DNA from: Embleya scabrispora DSM 41855 | GTDB lineage: Bacteria; Actinomycetota; Actinomycetes; Streptomycetales; Streptomycetaceae | Reading direction: 5' to 3' | Length of the DNA stretch: 64,000 nucleotides | Assembly: GCF_000372745.1 (NCBI RefSeq) | Contig: NZ_KB889667.1 | Span: 62,001 to 126,000 of the forward strand | Shown here: positions 28,749-42,885 of the stretch, piece after piece | Layout: the number at the start of each line of letters is the position of its first letter | How positions within the stretch are numbered: the first letter of the stretch is position 1 | The notes under the pieces: generated by a model | The model's input: the letters and a program-made list of their open reading frames with translations, nothing else | Told to the model about the DNA's origin: nothing | Databases searched by the model: none | Made by a program: the position numbers and the translations under genes

Positions 28749-28825
<77 letters not shown>

Positions 28826-28941: not shown

Positions 28942-29310
28942 TCATCGAACGGCCCGCGACTGCAGCGGCGTAGATCGGTCCGAATAGGTCACGAAGCCGG
29001 ATGGGTCGTCGCGATCTGGTCGCAATCGACTCGGTAGGTTGATCCTCGCGTCCACCCCTTCGGCACCGACGAGGGCCTCCTCGATGGCGTCCACCGCGTC
29101 GTGCGCAGCCTGACGGGTCAAGTGAGCGTAGATGTTCGCGGTCGTCGACAACGTCGAGTGTCGCAACGTCTTGGACATCACCGTCAGGAGCACACCCGCG
29201 GTGATCGTCAGCGTCGCGGCCAGGTGCTGCAGGTCGTGCATCGTGATCCGGGGCAGCCGGCCTCGACGGACCAGCGACGGAAACGATCCAACAGGGCCTG
29301 CGGCCGCAAC
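28942..29310 (-). pseudogene. Tyrosine recombinase (integrase), C-terminal relic
   Basis: The C-terminal catalytic part of a phage-type integrase remains. [18 protein letters not shown] continues into [17 protein letters not shown], which aligns with the usual HDLRH...LGHSS...Y arrangement. The first catalytic Arg is replaced by Gln (HDLQH), while the LRHS box and the Tyr region remain. Upstream, [16 protein letters not shown] is found in a different frame, so a frameshift near 29260 breaks the gene. The N-terminal two thirds are unrecognisable. It is located beside the tRNA-Pro end, as expected for an integrase. Confidence 0.75.
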
Positions 29311-29799
29311 GGCCGAACGATTCCGGATACCGCGACCGCGCATGTGCGCCGTCAGTGGTTGGGACGGCTGAGCAAGACCGACAACGGGCTCGTCACGGTG
29401 ACCACCCTGTGCGCCAACGAGCGGGTCTATCAGCCCCTGTATACCGGTCCCTGCACGCCGGCCCGGCACTTCCCGAAAGGGCAGGAACGACCCGGTCCCG
29501 CACCAAGCGCAGGGGTGGTGTTCGGCAGCGGCGTAGTCCAGGGCCACGGTGTGCGTGCGGCGGCGTGCGCGGGTCGGCACACGGCGCCCGGCCGTGGTCC
29601 CAGAGCACCCGAAGAGGGCTCGTTTCCCGGAATTTGCCGGTTCGGCCGGATCCCTTCGCCCGGCACGGACGCCTGTGTGAATGTTTCGCTTGCTCGGGCA
29701 CGAACCCCGTCCTGCTCGGTCGTCCGCGGCCCTCACGAGGTGCCCGCGACAGCAGGTCGGTGGCGTGGTCGAGGTCTGCCTTCCACCCAAGGAGCCTCG
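29311..29799. other. Degenerate stretch upstream of the protease
   Basis: This is probably the decayed 5' part of the integrase plus the promoter of the protease gene. Open frames on both strands are interrupted or arginine-rich antisense, and no gene is supported. Confidence 0.4.
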
Positions 29800-32529
29800 A
29801 TGAATCGAAGAATGACCACCACCGGGACCGTCCTCGCCTTACTCGCCGGCCTCACCATCGGCGCGGCGGCCCAGTCGGCCGCGGCCGACCCGCCCGCGCC
29901 GCCCGGCTCTCAGGCGCCGGCCGTCGCCGCCGCCGACCGGGCCGCCGCAAGCGGCCTGGACGTCCTGGCCAAGGGACCCGACGAACAGTACGAACGGCAG
30001 GCGGTGACGCCGTGGGTCGACGATCTGTACTCCGTCGCCTACGAGCGTACCTACCGCGGCCTGCCGGTCGTCGGCGGCGACGCCGTCGTCCTCGCCGACG
30101 GCAAGGGCCGCGTCCGCGCGGCCCAGTCCGCGAGCGATGTGCAGATATCCACCACGGTCCAGCCGATCGTGACGGCCGACGCCGCCGAGACCATCTCCAG
30201 GGCCGAACTCGCGTCGGTGGACCGGGTCGAGTCACACCGCCTGGTCGTCCGGGTCAGGGACGGTCGGAGCAATCTCGCCTGGGAGACCGTGGTCGTCGGC
30301 CGCACCGCGACCGCGCCCAGCAGGCTGCACGTCTTCGTCGATGCGAGCACGGGCACGGTGCTCGACACGGTCGACGACGTCAAGGCCGGCACCGGCAACA
30401 GCCAGTGGAACGGCCCGAACATCCCGATCGACACCACCAAGTCCGGTGCCAGGTACTCGCTGCGCGACCCGGGCCGACCCGGCCTGTCCTGCGCGGACTA
30501 CTCCACCGGAACGGTGTTCTCCAAGTCCACCGACTCGTGGGGCAACGGCCAGGCGTCCAGCAAGGAAACCGGCTGCGCCGACGTCATGTTCGCGGCCCAA
30601 AAAGAGTGGAACATGCTCCGTGACTGGCTTGGTCGCAACGGGCACAACGGCAACGGCGGCAGCTGGCCGGTCAAGGTCGGCCTCAACGACGTCAACGCCT
30701 ACTGGGACGGCTCGTCCATCTCGATCGGGCACAACCAGGCGAACAAGTGGATCGGCTCGATGGACGTCGTGGGCCACGAGTTCGGCCACGGAATCGACCA
30801 GTTCACCCCCGGCGGCGCCGGCACCGAACCCGGACTGGGCGAGTCCACCGGCGACATCATGGGCGCGCTGACCGAGGCGTACACCAACGAATCCTCGCCC
30901 TACGACACCCCCGACTACACCGTCGGCGAAACGGTCAACCTGGTCGGCCAGGGCCCCATCCGCTACATGTACAAGCCCTCCACCAACGGCGACCCGAACT
31001 GCTACAGCTCGTCGATCCCCAACACCGAGGAGCACGCGGCGGCGGGACCGATGAACCACTGGTTCTACCTGCTCGCCGAGGGCACCAACCCCGGCGGCGG
31101 CAAGCCCACCAGCCCCACCTGTAACAACACCACGCTCACCGGCGTCGGCATCAAGTCCGCAGGCAAAGTCTTCTATGGCGGCATGCTGCTCAAGACCAGC
31201 GGCATGACCTACAAGAAGTACCGCACCGCGACCCTGAAATCGGCGAAGACCCTCGACCCCACGTGTGGTCTGTTCAACAAGACCAAGGCCGCCTGGAACG
31301 CCATCAGCGTGCCCGCCCAGACCGGTGACCCCACCTGCACCGCAGGTTCCGGCCGCGACGAATTCTCGGTCGCCTTCACCTCGCCCTCGGGCATCGTGAC
31401 ACCGGGCGACTCGATCACGACCGCGGTGAGCACGGCCGTGACCGCAGGCGCGGCGCAGAACGTCACCCTGTCCACGAGCGGTCTGCCGACCGGTGTGACC
31501 TCGACCTTCAACCCGGCGTCCGTCCAGGCGGGCGGCTCGACCCTGACCCTGTCGGCGAGTTCGACCGCGCCGGCAGGCACCTACCCCGTGACCGTCACCG
31601 CTAGCAGCCCCACCGCCACGCACACCGCCCGGTACACCCTGACCGTCACAGGTCCTGGCAACCGGAGCCTTGTGCCGCCCGACATCAACGTGGCGAACGT
31701 CCAGGCGCACCTGACCCAGCTCAACACCATCGCGAACCAGAACGGCGGCAACCGCCGTGCGGGCAGCGCCGGTTACACCGCGTCCGTGGCCTACGTGAAG
31801 GGCAAGCTCCAGGCCGCCGGCTTCACCGTGTCCGAGCAGGTCTGCACCTCCTGCCGATACCGCTCCAACAACCTGATCGCCGACTGGCCCGGCGGCCCCG
31901 CCAACCAGGTCGTCATGTTCGGTGCCCACCTGGACAGCGTCCAGGCGGGCCCCGGCATCAACGACAACGGCTCCGGCTCGGCCACCCTCCTGGAGAACGC
32001 CCTCGCGCTCGCCCGGGCCAACCCCACCCTCACCAAGCACGTGCGCTTCGGCTGGTGGGCCGGCGAGGAACAGGGCCTCCAGGGCTCGCAGTTCTACGTG
32101 GGCCAACTCACCTCGGCACAGCGCTCCGCGATCAGGGGCTACTACAACTTCGACATGGTCGGCTCACGCAACGCGGGCTACTTCATCAACAACATCAACT
32201 CCGCCACCGCTGCGCCCCTCAAGGCGTACTGGGACACGCTGAACCTGCGTCCCGAGGAGAACGTCGAGGGCCAAGGCCGCTCCGACGACTACTCCTTCCA
32301 GCGGGCCGGCATCCCCACCTCCGGCTACGCGGCCGGTGCCAGCGCCACCAAGAGCTCGGCACAGGCGACCAAGTGGGGCGGCACGGCCGGCGCCTCCTAC
32401 GACTCGTGCTACCACTCCGCGTGTGACACCACGAGCAACATCAACGCCACGGTGCTCAACCGCAGCGCCGACGGCGTGGCGTACGCAATCTGGAAGACCG
32501 CAGTCGGCGTCACCACGCCCACCACCTAG
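29800..32529 (+). CDS. Secreted M4 metalloprotease fused to an M28 aminopeptidase
   Basis: A 909-residue exported protein combining two proteases. The signal peptide ends near AAAQSAAAD (residue about 28), followed by an FTP/PepSY propeptide. The M4 (thermolysin-like) domain has [11 protein letters not shown] with the HExxH zinc site (about residue 325) and [11 protein letters not shown] for the third ligand. An Ig-like linker (about 520-620) follows. An M28 domain closely resembling Streptomyces griseus aminopeptidase comes last ([43 protein letters not shown]). It should cut proteins internally and then trim N termini. ATG 29800 follows GGAG. Confidence 0.92.
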
Positions 32530-32579: not shown

Positions 32580-33213
32580 CGCCCCCACGCAGCCCCTTTC
32601 CCCAAGGACGAAAAAGTTCTATCTCCGGATGGAACCGTCAATCCCGGAGTCAAGGACCTTCACCCGCCCGGTTGAGTCGGCCTGAAGCACGGTTCCGGTG
32701 TTGCCACCGGCCCGTTTCTCCAGGCCGCTCTCCGAATGAAGTAGGCCGCCGACGAGGTGCCCCTGGCCGAGGTTCCTTTTAGACGGCCCTTCCCGAACCG
32801 GATGGGCCCGATTTCCAGGCATCCGGCTCTCCAGTCAACGATCCCAACCACAGCCCGGTCGACCGGTTCGCGGCTGCGGTGAAGCCGCTGCGGGCCGGGG
32901 ACCCAGGTCAATGAGGTCACCGATCGCGCCAAGGTGCCGGCCGGCCAGACAGGGATCCGAGCCGTGGCCAACGTCCTGACCGCCATGGCAGACGCGTTCG
33001 AAGCGCAAAGTTCAGGTCGTATATCGCGGCAAGCGGGCGCGTCGTAACCTCCAGCGTTCTAGCGTTGCGGAATCCCGGATCACCGCTATGGAGCAAGGCA
33101 CCCGCCCCTGCGTGACAACAACCGCGCACCTTTCCGGACGTCCACGTACCTCCCGGGACTGTGCCGGCACGTCCAAAGAGCCGTGAACCACCTCCTTGCC
33201 ACACCCTGCGTTG
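32580..33213. other. Gene-poor end of the integrated element
   Basis: No intact gene. A short plus-strand stretch around 32908-33005 reads like a protein fragment (NEVTDRAKVPAGQTGIRAV), and another piece just upstream (about 32835-32910) is in a different frame, so a decayed gene is likely. I cannot name it. Confidence 0.4.
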
Positions 33214-33254
33214 CTGGGGGTCAAGGGGTCGCAGGTTCAATTCCTGTCGTCCCG
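33214..33254 (+). repeat. attR: partial copy of tRNA-Pro 3' part
   Basis: 41 bases matching 28781-28821 of tRNA-Pro with one difference (T for A in the T loop region at 33241). It covers the anticodon loop to the acceptor end but lacks the 5' half and the CCA, so it cannot be a functional tRNA. Confidence 0.9.
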
Positions 33255-41336: not shown

Positions 41337-41708
41337 GGCGCGCATCACGGGTGTCAGCTCCCCTGGTCCTTCTCCGACACAGTGTCGTCACCTTTCGTAG
41401 GTCCGCCGCCTCATGCGGCGGACACGCCGTCTGCCGGAGGCGTCATCGCGCCCCGGGTCCATGGCCGTTCGCAGTGATGACCGGGTGCCCCGTGGATCCG
41501 TGACAGGGGCGTTGGCGTTCGCCATGGTTCCCGGACGGCAGAGGGCGGGCGGGGATCCGAAGGCGGTCGGACGGTGGGTGGGGAGAGGGACGGTGTGACG
41601 CCGAAGCCGGTCGAAGGCGCGGACCGGCGCGTGGAGTGTGGCAGTGTGTGTTCGCCTCGTATTCGGCGTGTGAACCCCCGGAAGCACCGTTCCGGAGTGG
41701 CTTGTAGC

Positions 41709-42635
41709 ATGGCGGCGCCGAAGCCGAAGGGGACAACCATAAACGCTGGGGCTGACACCGATTCTCTCGACCAGGCGGCGAGAGACTTCCTCGCGGCGCG
41801 CCCGCGGCTCTTCGGTGTCGCGTACCGGGTGCTCGGAAGCGCGGTGGAGGCGGAGGACATCGTCCAGGAGGCGTGGCTGCGGTGGCAGAACGCGGACCGC
41901 GCTCGCATCCTGGAGCCTGCGGCCTTCCTGACCACGGTCACCGCCCGTCTGGCCATCAACCTGGCCCAGTCCGCCAGAGTGCGGCGGGAGTCCTACGTCG
42001 GCCCGTGGCTTCCCGAGCCGGTCGACACCAGCGCGGATCCGCAGATGGGTGCCGAACGGGCCGAAGCCCTCGAACTGGCGGTTCTCTTCCTGCTGGAGAA
42101 GCTGAACCCGATGGAGCGTGCCGCCTACGTCCTGCGGGAAGCCTTCGACTACCCCTACGCGCAGATCGCGAGAATCCTGGAGACGAGTGAGGCCAACACC
42201 CGTCAACTGGTGAGCCGCGGGCGCAAACACCTGGCCGCCGAGCGCAGGGAACGCGTCGGCACGACTGATCACCGTCGTCTCCTGGAGGTGTTCCTCGCGG
42301 CGGCGCAGCAGGGTGATCTGGCGGCGCTGGAGAACGTGCTCGCCGCGGATGTCGTCAGCTACACCGACGGCGGCGGGCTGCGCGGCGCGTCGAAGATACC
42401 GGTCGTCGGACGTCTGCACGTCTCCAAGTACCTCGTGGCCTTCGCCCCCCGGTTCTGGCCCGGGTCGGAGGTGCGGTGGGTCGAGGCCAACGGTCGTCCC
42501 GCTGTCGTCGTCTCGTCCGGCGGGGAGGCCGTGGCCCTCCTCTCCGTCGATGTGTCCGCCGAGGGGATCGACCGGATCCTGTGGGTGATGAACGCGGCCA
42601 AGCTGTCGCCCTACATGACATCGCCGAGCAGTTGA
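41709..42635 (+). CDS. sigJ: ECF41-type RNA polymerase sigma factor (SigJ-like)
   Basis: A 308-residue extracytoplasmic-function sigma factor with a C-terminal SnoaL-like extension. Region 2 is seen at FLAARPRLFGVAYRVLGSAV through DIVQEAWLRWQ (about residues 25-60), and region 4 at LNPMERAAYVLREAFDYPY to TRQLVSRGRKHL (about 135-178). The SnoaL domain follows (FLAAAQQGDLAALENVL). ECF41 members are controlled by this C-terminal domain rather than by an anti-sigma, and usually sit beside a carboxymuconolactone decarboxylase, oxidoreductase or epimerase gene. Here both neighbours of that kind are broken. ATG 41709 is used; GGAG lies 11 bases upstream. Confidence 0.9.
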   Translation: MAAPKPKGTTINAGADTDSLDQAARDFLAARPRLFGVAYRVLGSAVEAEDIVQEAWLRWQNADRARILEPAAFLTTVTARLAINLAQSARVRRESYVGPWLPEPVDTSADPQMGAERAEALELAVLFLLEKLNPMERAAYVLREAFDYPYAQIARILETSEANTRQLVSRGRKHLAAERRERVGTTDHRRLLEVFLAAAQQGDLAALENVLAADVVSYTDGGGLRGASKIPVVGRLHVSKYLVAFAPRFWPGSEVRWVEANGRPAVVVSSGGEAVALLSVDVSAEGIDRILWVMNAAKLSPYMTSPSS

Positions 42636-42639
42636 ACAC

Positions 42640-42885
42640 CCTTACGCCCAGACTGTGGTGGACATGGTTCCGGGTGGGCCGCCCTCGCAGCGTCGCCATG
42701 ATGTGCTTCGCCGGCCGCTTGACCTGCCGAACCGCGTGCTGGGCGTTGGGAACCGTGTGCGCTCCCGGCCGCCCCACCGCGAGATCGGGCACCGAGGCAT
42801 CGTCGCCGGCGGCCCACACGTGCGTCGCCCGGGGCCGCCGAGGCAGCGTCGCCGCCGCCTCGGCGAGCGCGGCACCGCGGGTCAC
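42640..42885 (-). pseudogene. NADH dehydrogenase-2-like FAD oxidoreductase, C-terminal relic
   Basis: About 80 codons read ATHVWAAGDDASVPDLA, then VPNAQHAVRQVKRPAKHIM and HHSLGV. This is the end of the FAD-binding part of NDH-2-type pyridine nucleotide oxidoreductases (WAAGD, then PNAQHAVRQ). Nothing recognisable remains on either side; the upstream end runs into the FAH gene. Confidence 0.6.

Follow-up and report, generated by a model that had tools for sequence, protein, structure and literature searches.

M4 and M28 peptidases are textbook families. In Pseudomonas aeruginosa, elastase is sufficient, but not essential, for activation of the aminopeptidase PaAP, and LysC is named as the principal activator (PMC8208579). 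E495 of Pseudoalteromonas is a secreted M4 protease whose C-terminal extra (PPC) domains raise its action on proteins (PMC3327674), and keratin breakdown reportedly requires at least one endo-, one exo- and one oligopeptide-acting enzyme (PMC4756042).

Here, we describe a gene of Embleya scabrispora DSM 41855 that encodes an M4 and an M28 peptidase in a single chain. The gene lies in a stretch of 64,000 nucleotides (contig NZ_KB889667.1, positions 62,001 to 126,000), referred to as the window, and coordinates are those of the window throughout. Among the papers listed in searches of open-access full text, none describes an M4-M28 chain by title or abstract start; public records name such chains after one half, either as 'M28 family peptidase' or as 'M20/M25/M40 family metallo-hydrolase', a practice that hides the second enzyme. 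Judging from the sequence, we lean towards the view that the product is a secreted, modular two-enzyme peptidase chain, in which an endopeptidase would open proteins and a tethered aminopeptidase would trim the new ends.

Domain organisation of the fusion gene

The gene, its ribosome-binding site and the parts of its product are as follows:

29789-29794, + strand: ribosome-binding site AAGGAG, five bases ahead of the ATG
29800..32529, + strand: fusion gene M4-Ig-M28, complete, 909 aa; exact open reading frame with ATG start
29800..29886, + strand: signal peptide, residues 1-29 (AAA/D boundary), Sec-type, judged by eye
29887..30369, + strand: N-terminal propeptide with FTP motif, residues 30-190 (Pfam FTP at 79-110)
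30370..31329, + strand: M4 thermolysin-type domain, residues 191-510 (Pfam, fold match, conserved site)
31330..31674, + strand: predicted Ig-like linker domain, residues 511-625 approximately (linker folded alone, structure match)
31675..32514, + strand: M28 aminopeptidase domain of SGAP type, residues 626-905 (Pfam, structure match)

The stretch holding the ribosome-binding site, AGGAGCCTCGATG, is identical in 22 aligned upstream regions that were picked by their likeness to it, two of the 23 loci tried (L012, L018) being unmatched and omitted. Within the propeptide, the FTP motif at 79-110 scores 26.0 bits against a Pfam cut-off of 21, and chain 3nqy_A of Mcp02 aligns with residues 80-194 in a PDB sequence match. 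Across the 909-aa protein, PDB sequence matches were obtained to SGAP (1cp7, 322 bits), PaAP and other M28 enzymes, and weakly to M4 enzymes. In NCBIfam, the chain as a whole has no model: the 11 hits obtained fall on both halves and all lie far under their cut-offs. An AlphaFold2 model built from 53 aligned proteins has a mean pLDDT of 83 (below 50 for residues 1-35) and a pTM of 0.46, so that the domains are good whilst the arrangement of the halves is not fixed; among the matches listed, a structure search with the whole model returned single-peptidase entries only.

The two catalytic halves

In the M4 half, Pfam identifies Peptidase_M4 at residues 197-332 (97.5 bits, cut-off 22.4) and Peptidase_M4_C at 345-504 (79.8 bits, cut-off 24.4). 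The site comprises HEFGH at 326-330 (H326-E-x-x-H330), E348, D352 and H412; with M4 residue roles assigned by motif, we take H412 to be the counterpart of the catalytic histidine of thermolysin. Residues 191-504 of the model match thermolysin 5fxn with Z 35.2 and an rmsd of 2.3 over 293 residues at 27% identity (VIA-align). By its domains, its HExxH motif with distal glutamate and catalytic histidine, and its thermolysin fold, this half belongs to family M4.

The M28 half carries Peptidase_M28 at residues 691-896 (161.7 bits, cut-off 21.3), and model residues 626-901 match SGAP 1qq9 with Z 44.6 and an rmsd of 1.2 over 276 residues at 56% identity (VIA-align), aligning without gaps on residues 1-276 of the SGAP chain. 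Two things follow from this gap-free alignment: H710, D722, E756, E757, D785 and H872 correspond to SGAP positions 85, 97, 131, 132, 160 and 247, which we take to be the metal ligands and the catalytic base, and the aminopeptidase half starts where the SGAP chain starts. With its Peptidase_M28 domain, SGAP fold and co-catalytic metal ligands, this half is a member of family M28. Of the calcium ligands of SGAP, the window protein retains D628 and D891; at position 887, the counterpart of SGAP Asp262, it has Asn.

Conservation was analysed over 92 fused frames, which reduce to 87 distinct strings; locus ends truncate four, and the set represents about 85 genes, with the window's own gene (L002, L087) and one E. 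hyalina gene (L008, L109) entered twice. The M4 residues H326, E327, H330, E348, D352 and H412 are identical in 87/87 strings, as are the M28 residues H710, D712, D722, E756, E757 and D785; H872 is found in 86/87, the single gap being L002, in which the window's own gene is truncated. Another 18 fused chains, of which 12 belong to the window kind and six to a second kind (described below), also keep all 13 site positions, and the site residues of both halves are invariant in 53/53 aligned proteins. Position 887 is more variable, with Asp in 50 and Asn in 35 of the 87 strings. Cysteines C231, C259, C401, C441 and C513 occur in all 87, C870 and C875 in 86, and C489 in 79. A C-x-x-C pair at residues 682-685 (31843-31854) is likewise complete in 87/87 strings, and position 682 is Phe in all six second-kind chains. 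A second alignment that mixes both chain kinds retains C682 in 12/12 window-kind rows and C685 in just 5/12; our guess is that this discrepancy with 87/87 reflects gap placement. A structural or a redox disulfide between C682 and C685 is possible.

Six pairwise comparisons with relatives gave dN/dS values of 0.11-0.27 for the M4 half (the lowest), 0.15-0.37 for the M28 half, 0.28-0.56 for signal peptide plus propeptide and 0.44-0.72 for the linker (the highest). The M4 and M28 halves are both under constraint, and decay of one half is ruled out, as both catalytic sites are kept. These data also bear on the idea that one half alone is catalytically relevant outside the cell, the other serving for binding or maturation, with the M4 half, for example, maturing the aminopeptidase. 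Endopeptidases do activate PaAP by limited cleavage (PMC8208579), but invariant sites in both halves of 53/53 aligned proteins, their retention in the fused strings and the 18 further chains, and low dN/dS on either side make such a division of roles improbable.

The preliminary description of this DNA had proposed an M4 peptidase and an SGAP-type M28 peptidase in one exported chain, joined by an Ig-like linker and each with a full metal site. Pfam domains above cut-off and a model that matches both folds confirm the pairing; the signal peptide, Sec-type by eye, agrees with export; the linker finds support in its predicted fold; and both metal sites proved complete throughout the 87 strings and 18 further chains.

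The linker and possible proteolytic processing

When folded alone from 41 sequences, the linker is modelled as an eight-stranded beta sandwich with a mean pLDDT of 86. Its best structural match is the Micromonospora sialidase 2ber (Z 12.8, rmsd 4.9, 111 residues, 17% identity), and sialidase, S-layer and titin Ig domains are found among the matches; no Pfam Ig family reaches its cut-off on the linker, the best being Big_3 with 16.8 bits against 21.2. The model thus points to an Ig-like beta-sandwich fold. Linker length is confined to 111-118 aa in 87/87 fused strings. One fused chain from a later sample (L173, genome G610) has a linker of only 35 aa without an Ig domain, and the Ig spacer is therefore not essential.

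As the fastest-evolving of the mature parts, the linker could be a cleavage site. This leads to a rival explanation that we hold to be credible, if less probable than not: the chain would be a secreted polyprotein, exported whole and then cleaved within the Ig linker or next to it, either by another protease or by the chain's own M4 domain, into two free enzymes in equal amounts, which would make the fusion a delivery and dosage device. Since the M28 half begins at the SGAP chain start, cleavage ahead of residue 626 would still yield a normal enzyme; among the mature parts, dN/dS shows the weakest constraint in the linker, and split versions exist among relatives. Literature precedents add to the credibility of this explanation: the M4 protease E495, with its C-terminal domains, has several mature forms (PMC3327674), and the Pseudomonas M4 elastase suffices, without being essential, for activation of the M28 enzyme PaAP through limited cleavage (PMC8208579). 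Against it, the linker is a predicted folded domain of nearly fixed length in all 87 strings, which is more than a cleavage site needs.

If the chain instead acts as the tethered two-enzyme peptidase that we favour, the signal peptide would direct export, and the FTP propeptide, by analogy with family M4, would hold the M4 domain inactive and aid its folding until removed by this domain's own cut. The mature chain, with an estimated mass of 70-75 kDa once signal and propeptide are gone, would then consist of an endopeptidase like thermolysin, followed by the Ig-like spacer and the SGAP-like aminopeptidase: each endopeptidase cut inside a protein would generate a new amino terminus, and the tethered aminopeptidase would shorten such termini to free amino acids. 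Weighing against this reading are the pTM of 0.46, which fixes no arrangement of the halves, the fast-evolving linker, the L173 chain that does without an Ig domain, and Asn at position 887.

Occurrence in actinomycetes

A whole-protein scan of genome contigs yielded 274 encoding stretches, of which the best 80 by whole-query match were kept, a ranking that favours fused chains; both halves are encoded in one frame in 80/80 of these best 80, and a second linker match follows the M28 half in 66/80. The fused relatives belong to Streptomyces, Kitasatospora, Embleya, Actinokineospora, Kutzneria, Longispora, Catellatospora, Phytomonospora, Kribbella, Streptosporangium, Nonomuraea, Planobispora, Planomonospora, Spongiactinospora and one further actinobacterium, and the pairing occurs in Streptomycetaceae, Pseudonocardiaceae, Micromonosporaceae, Streptosporangiaceae and Kribbellaceae. 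The nearest relative among the best 80 is that of Embleya hyalina, with 94% identity; strain NBRC 13850 of this species harbours three genes of the fused kind (L007-L009). From an even sample of the class (394 genomes), 51 have a match to the M28 half with an E value of 1e-60 or lower; at least 15 encode M4 and M28 in one frame (G000, G337, G355, G444, G517, G604, G610, G620, G630, G660, G668, G684, G724, G730 and G739), a lower bound because at most six candidates were scored per genome. A phylum sample queried with the whole protein, with two candidates scored per genome, showed the fusion in at least 3 of 396 genomes.

Plasmid records match in 75 of 72,556 cases, 11 of them with a single place that accounts for at least 80% of the query; among these 11, three are chromosome-sized (Embleya, 3.1 and 5.7 Mb; Nonomuraea, 11.9 Mb). 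One carrier of the fusion is a mobilizable 240-kb linear plasmid of Streptomyces zaomyceticus, where it is annotated as 'M28 family peptidase'. The phage collection returned six records, none covering 80% of the query, and a phage carrier is unsupported.

Uniqueness of the architecture is ruled out by the fused relatives, both in the best 80 of 274 stretches and in at least 15 of 394 genomes. A view of the fusion as a singular curiosity does not hold given the many actinomycetes that share it. The preliminary description named an architecture both widespread and described as what would refute it: it is indeed widespread, and a description did not emerge among the open-access papers listed. The same relatives speak to whether faulty sequencing or assembly merged two genes. 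A draft genome in 190 contigs, in which other copies of the family break at contig ends, would allow for this; against it, the same chain is present in Embleya hyalina (94% identity), at 79 other loci and in annotated plasmid records. An assembly artefact is refuted by these relatives, and we regard its probability as negligible.

C-terminal Ig, chitin-binding (CBM5/12) or P domains are present in many relatives: in five proteins scanned, CBM5/12 was found in S. coelicoflavus (L057) and a P domain in Streptosporangium (L072) and Longispora (L071). The window copy stops right after the aminopeptidase, and its two nearest orthologues (L007, L106) also stop soon after the M28 half.

Several further arrangements were observed. 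Two contig-end pieces in the window's own genome (C110, C120) encode M28-Ig with unread bases and may be further fused copies. An M4-only gene lies directly upstream of a fused gene, in the same direction, in two Embleya genomes (L008, 4115-5749; L125/L110). One 997-aa frame (L202, on contig C19 of G648) has an M28 domain after about 520 residues without an M4 match and with a different N-terminal partner.

Evolution of the two halves

The M4 tree places the fused proteins in one well-supported group (support 100, in a tree built by a quick method and containing long rows, L130 among them) of 103 rows: 85 fused, 14 M4-only and 4 cut. Of the M4-only rows, 13/14 are copies from Embleya, nested inside the fused group. 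On the M28 side, 84 fused, 3 cut and 1 M28-only rows grouped apart from SGAP-like single genes (100/99). The first M28 tree gave a long-branch warning, and later trees were built without the two long outgroup rows concerned; the split persists in their absence (100/100), and in none of three M28 trees (100/99 to 100/100) does the window-type M28 group with SGAP-like single genes. In the class sample, four genes of the window kind encode M28 alone (G207, known from the earlier set, and G523, G557 and G613), nested at three places. The four later M4 and M28 trees are based on hand-picked subsets of rows and all roots are midpoints; loss is inferred from nesting and not from root position. Fused groups with single-half genes nested in them indicate that the pairing is old and that single halves were lost or separated repeatedly. 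That M4-only and M28-only relatives lie inside the fused groups also means that each half persists without the other, which counts against the tethered two-enzyme reading.

A second kind of chain, in which M4-Ig is combined with a different M28, was identified in six genomes (L197-L201, L203). In the M28 tree, the M28 halves of these chains form one group between the SGAP-like single genes and the window kind, closer to the SGAP-like genes by branch length; in the M4 tree, their M4 halves fall at two places within the fused group of Streptosporangiaceae. Both kinds of chain are present in four of the six genomes (G444, G517, G668, G730). AU tests show that the M28 data reject the grouping of the M4 tree (p 1.6e-10) and that the M4 data reject that of the M28 tree (p 7e-4), values that are optimistic because the groups were named after the trees had been seen. 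With these p-AU values, it is ruled out that the halves always travelled together, and the conflicting trees indicate that modules were exchanged: module exchange, or conversion of the M4 half between paralogues, is the simplest reading.

A second M28 subtype joined to the same kind of M4-Ig suggests that endopeptidase and aminopeptidase are selected together in one chain. More speculatively, and with more doubt than conviction, M4-Ig might be viewed as a 'chassis' that accepts an exchangeable aminopeptidase 'cartridge', through which lineages would tune the end residues trimmed whilst endo- and exo-cutting stay physically coupled. Were this true, one chain would form a machine that degrades proteins in two steps, a counterpart for proteins of the multifunctional cellulases.

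Genomic context of the fusion gene

The following features were found around the gene:

28749..28825, + strand: tRNA-Pro(ggg), its 3' end forming the left repeat
28781..28821, + strand: left copy of a 41-bp repeat, attachment-site-like, at the tRNA-Pro 3' end
28942..29790, - strand: integrase remnant ORF, C-terminal end of a tyrosine recombinase
29676..29704, + strand: upstream block TGTGAATGTTTCGCTTGCTCGGGCACGAA, 29 bases, -124 to -96 from the ATG (upstream-region alignment)
32736-32831, - strand: group II intron match RF00029 just downstream of the fusion gene (Rfam 45.1 bits, gathering 40)
33214..33254, + strand: 41-bp repeat, right copy, 4433 bp from the left one and 98% identical to it with one mismatch

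The 4.4-kb stretch between the repeats thus holds a broken recombinase frame, the fusion gene and the group II intron match. Phage_integrase matches the recombinase frame with 22.0 bits, under its cut-off of 27.1, at profile positions 118-170 of 172 (Pfam), and the other recombinase models all stay far below cut-off on this frame. Of the features of a tRNA-integrated mobile element, the tRNA 3'-end repeat is present on both sides and an intact integrase is absent, only the last third of the profile being matched. To the left of the tRNA-Pro, synteny with two other Embleya genomes ends at the tRNA itself, and further copies of the tRNA-Pro end lie downstream in both of them, which makes an insertion hot spot likely. 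The nearest orthologue lies elsewhere in these genomes: in G001 it is some 34 kb beyond the tRNA, and in G002 it is located on a different contig. The DNA common to the gene's locus and these orthologue loci amounts to about 3.0 kb only, and it thus seems that the gene travelled as one piece together with about 200 bp preceding it. Separately, window positions 41697-42648, 9 kb downstream of the fusion gene, share 93% identity with a stretch that lies upstream of the G001 orthologue at a distance of about 0.5 kb; relative to G001, this match is a rearrangement.

At up to three mismatches, the TGTGAATGTTTCGCTTGCTCGGGCACGAA block has four sites in its own genome, each about 95 bp before a family member (one of them M4-only), and none in a reversed control; at the same tolerance it was not found before the copies on C1 and C133 or the first copy on C130. 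A promoter scan returned no promoter-like site, and terminator matches are at chance level.

Comparison with known systems

The chief interest of this family lies in module exchange and in its ready-made fused and split relatives: together with the module-swapped chains, these natural variants allow a direct test of what tethering is worth. Should both halves be active within a single chain, they would be an instance from nature of endo/exo coupling during protein degradation. Such enzymes could serve for protein hydrolysates.

PaAP and elastase resemble the fusion as a secreted M28 and a secreted M4 enzyme of one organism but differ in being encoded by two separate genes and interacting in trans (PMC8208579). 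E495 differs in that its additional domains are protein-binding modules rather than a further peptidase (PMC3327674).

With thermolysin, vibriolysin and LasB the M4 half has in common the FTP propeptide, the catalytic and helical subdomains and the HExxH...E motif; it differs in its C-terminal partner, which is a second peptidase, and shares only 27% identity with thermolysin. The sialidase of Micromonospora viridifaciens uses an Ig-like spacer to separate its catalytic and sugar-binding domains and, unlike the fusion, is a glycosidase. In case of SGAP, the metal-site positions coincide with those of the M28 half (1cp7, 1qq9), whereas the solved chain has 284 residues and one domain; a further difference lies in the cysteine pair C682 and C685 of the 87/87 fused strings, and from SGAP-like single genes the window-type M28 stands as a clade apart, in trees whose rows do not include SGAP itself.
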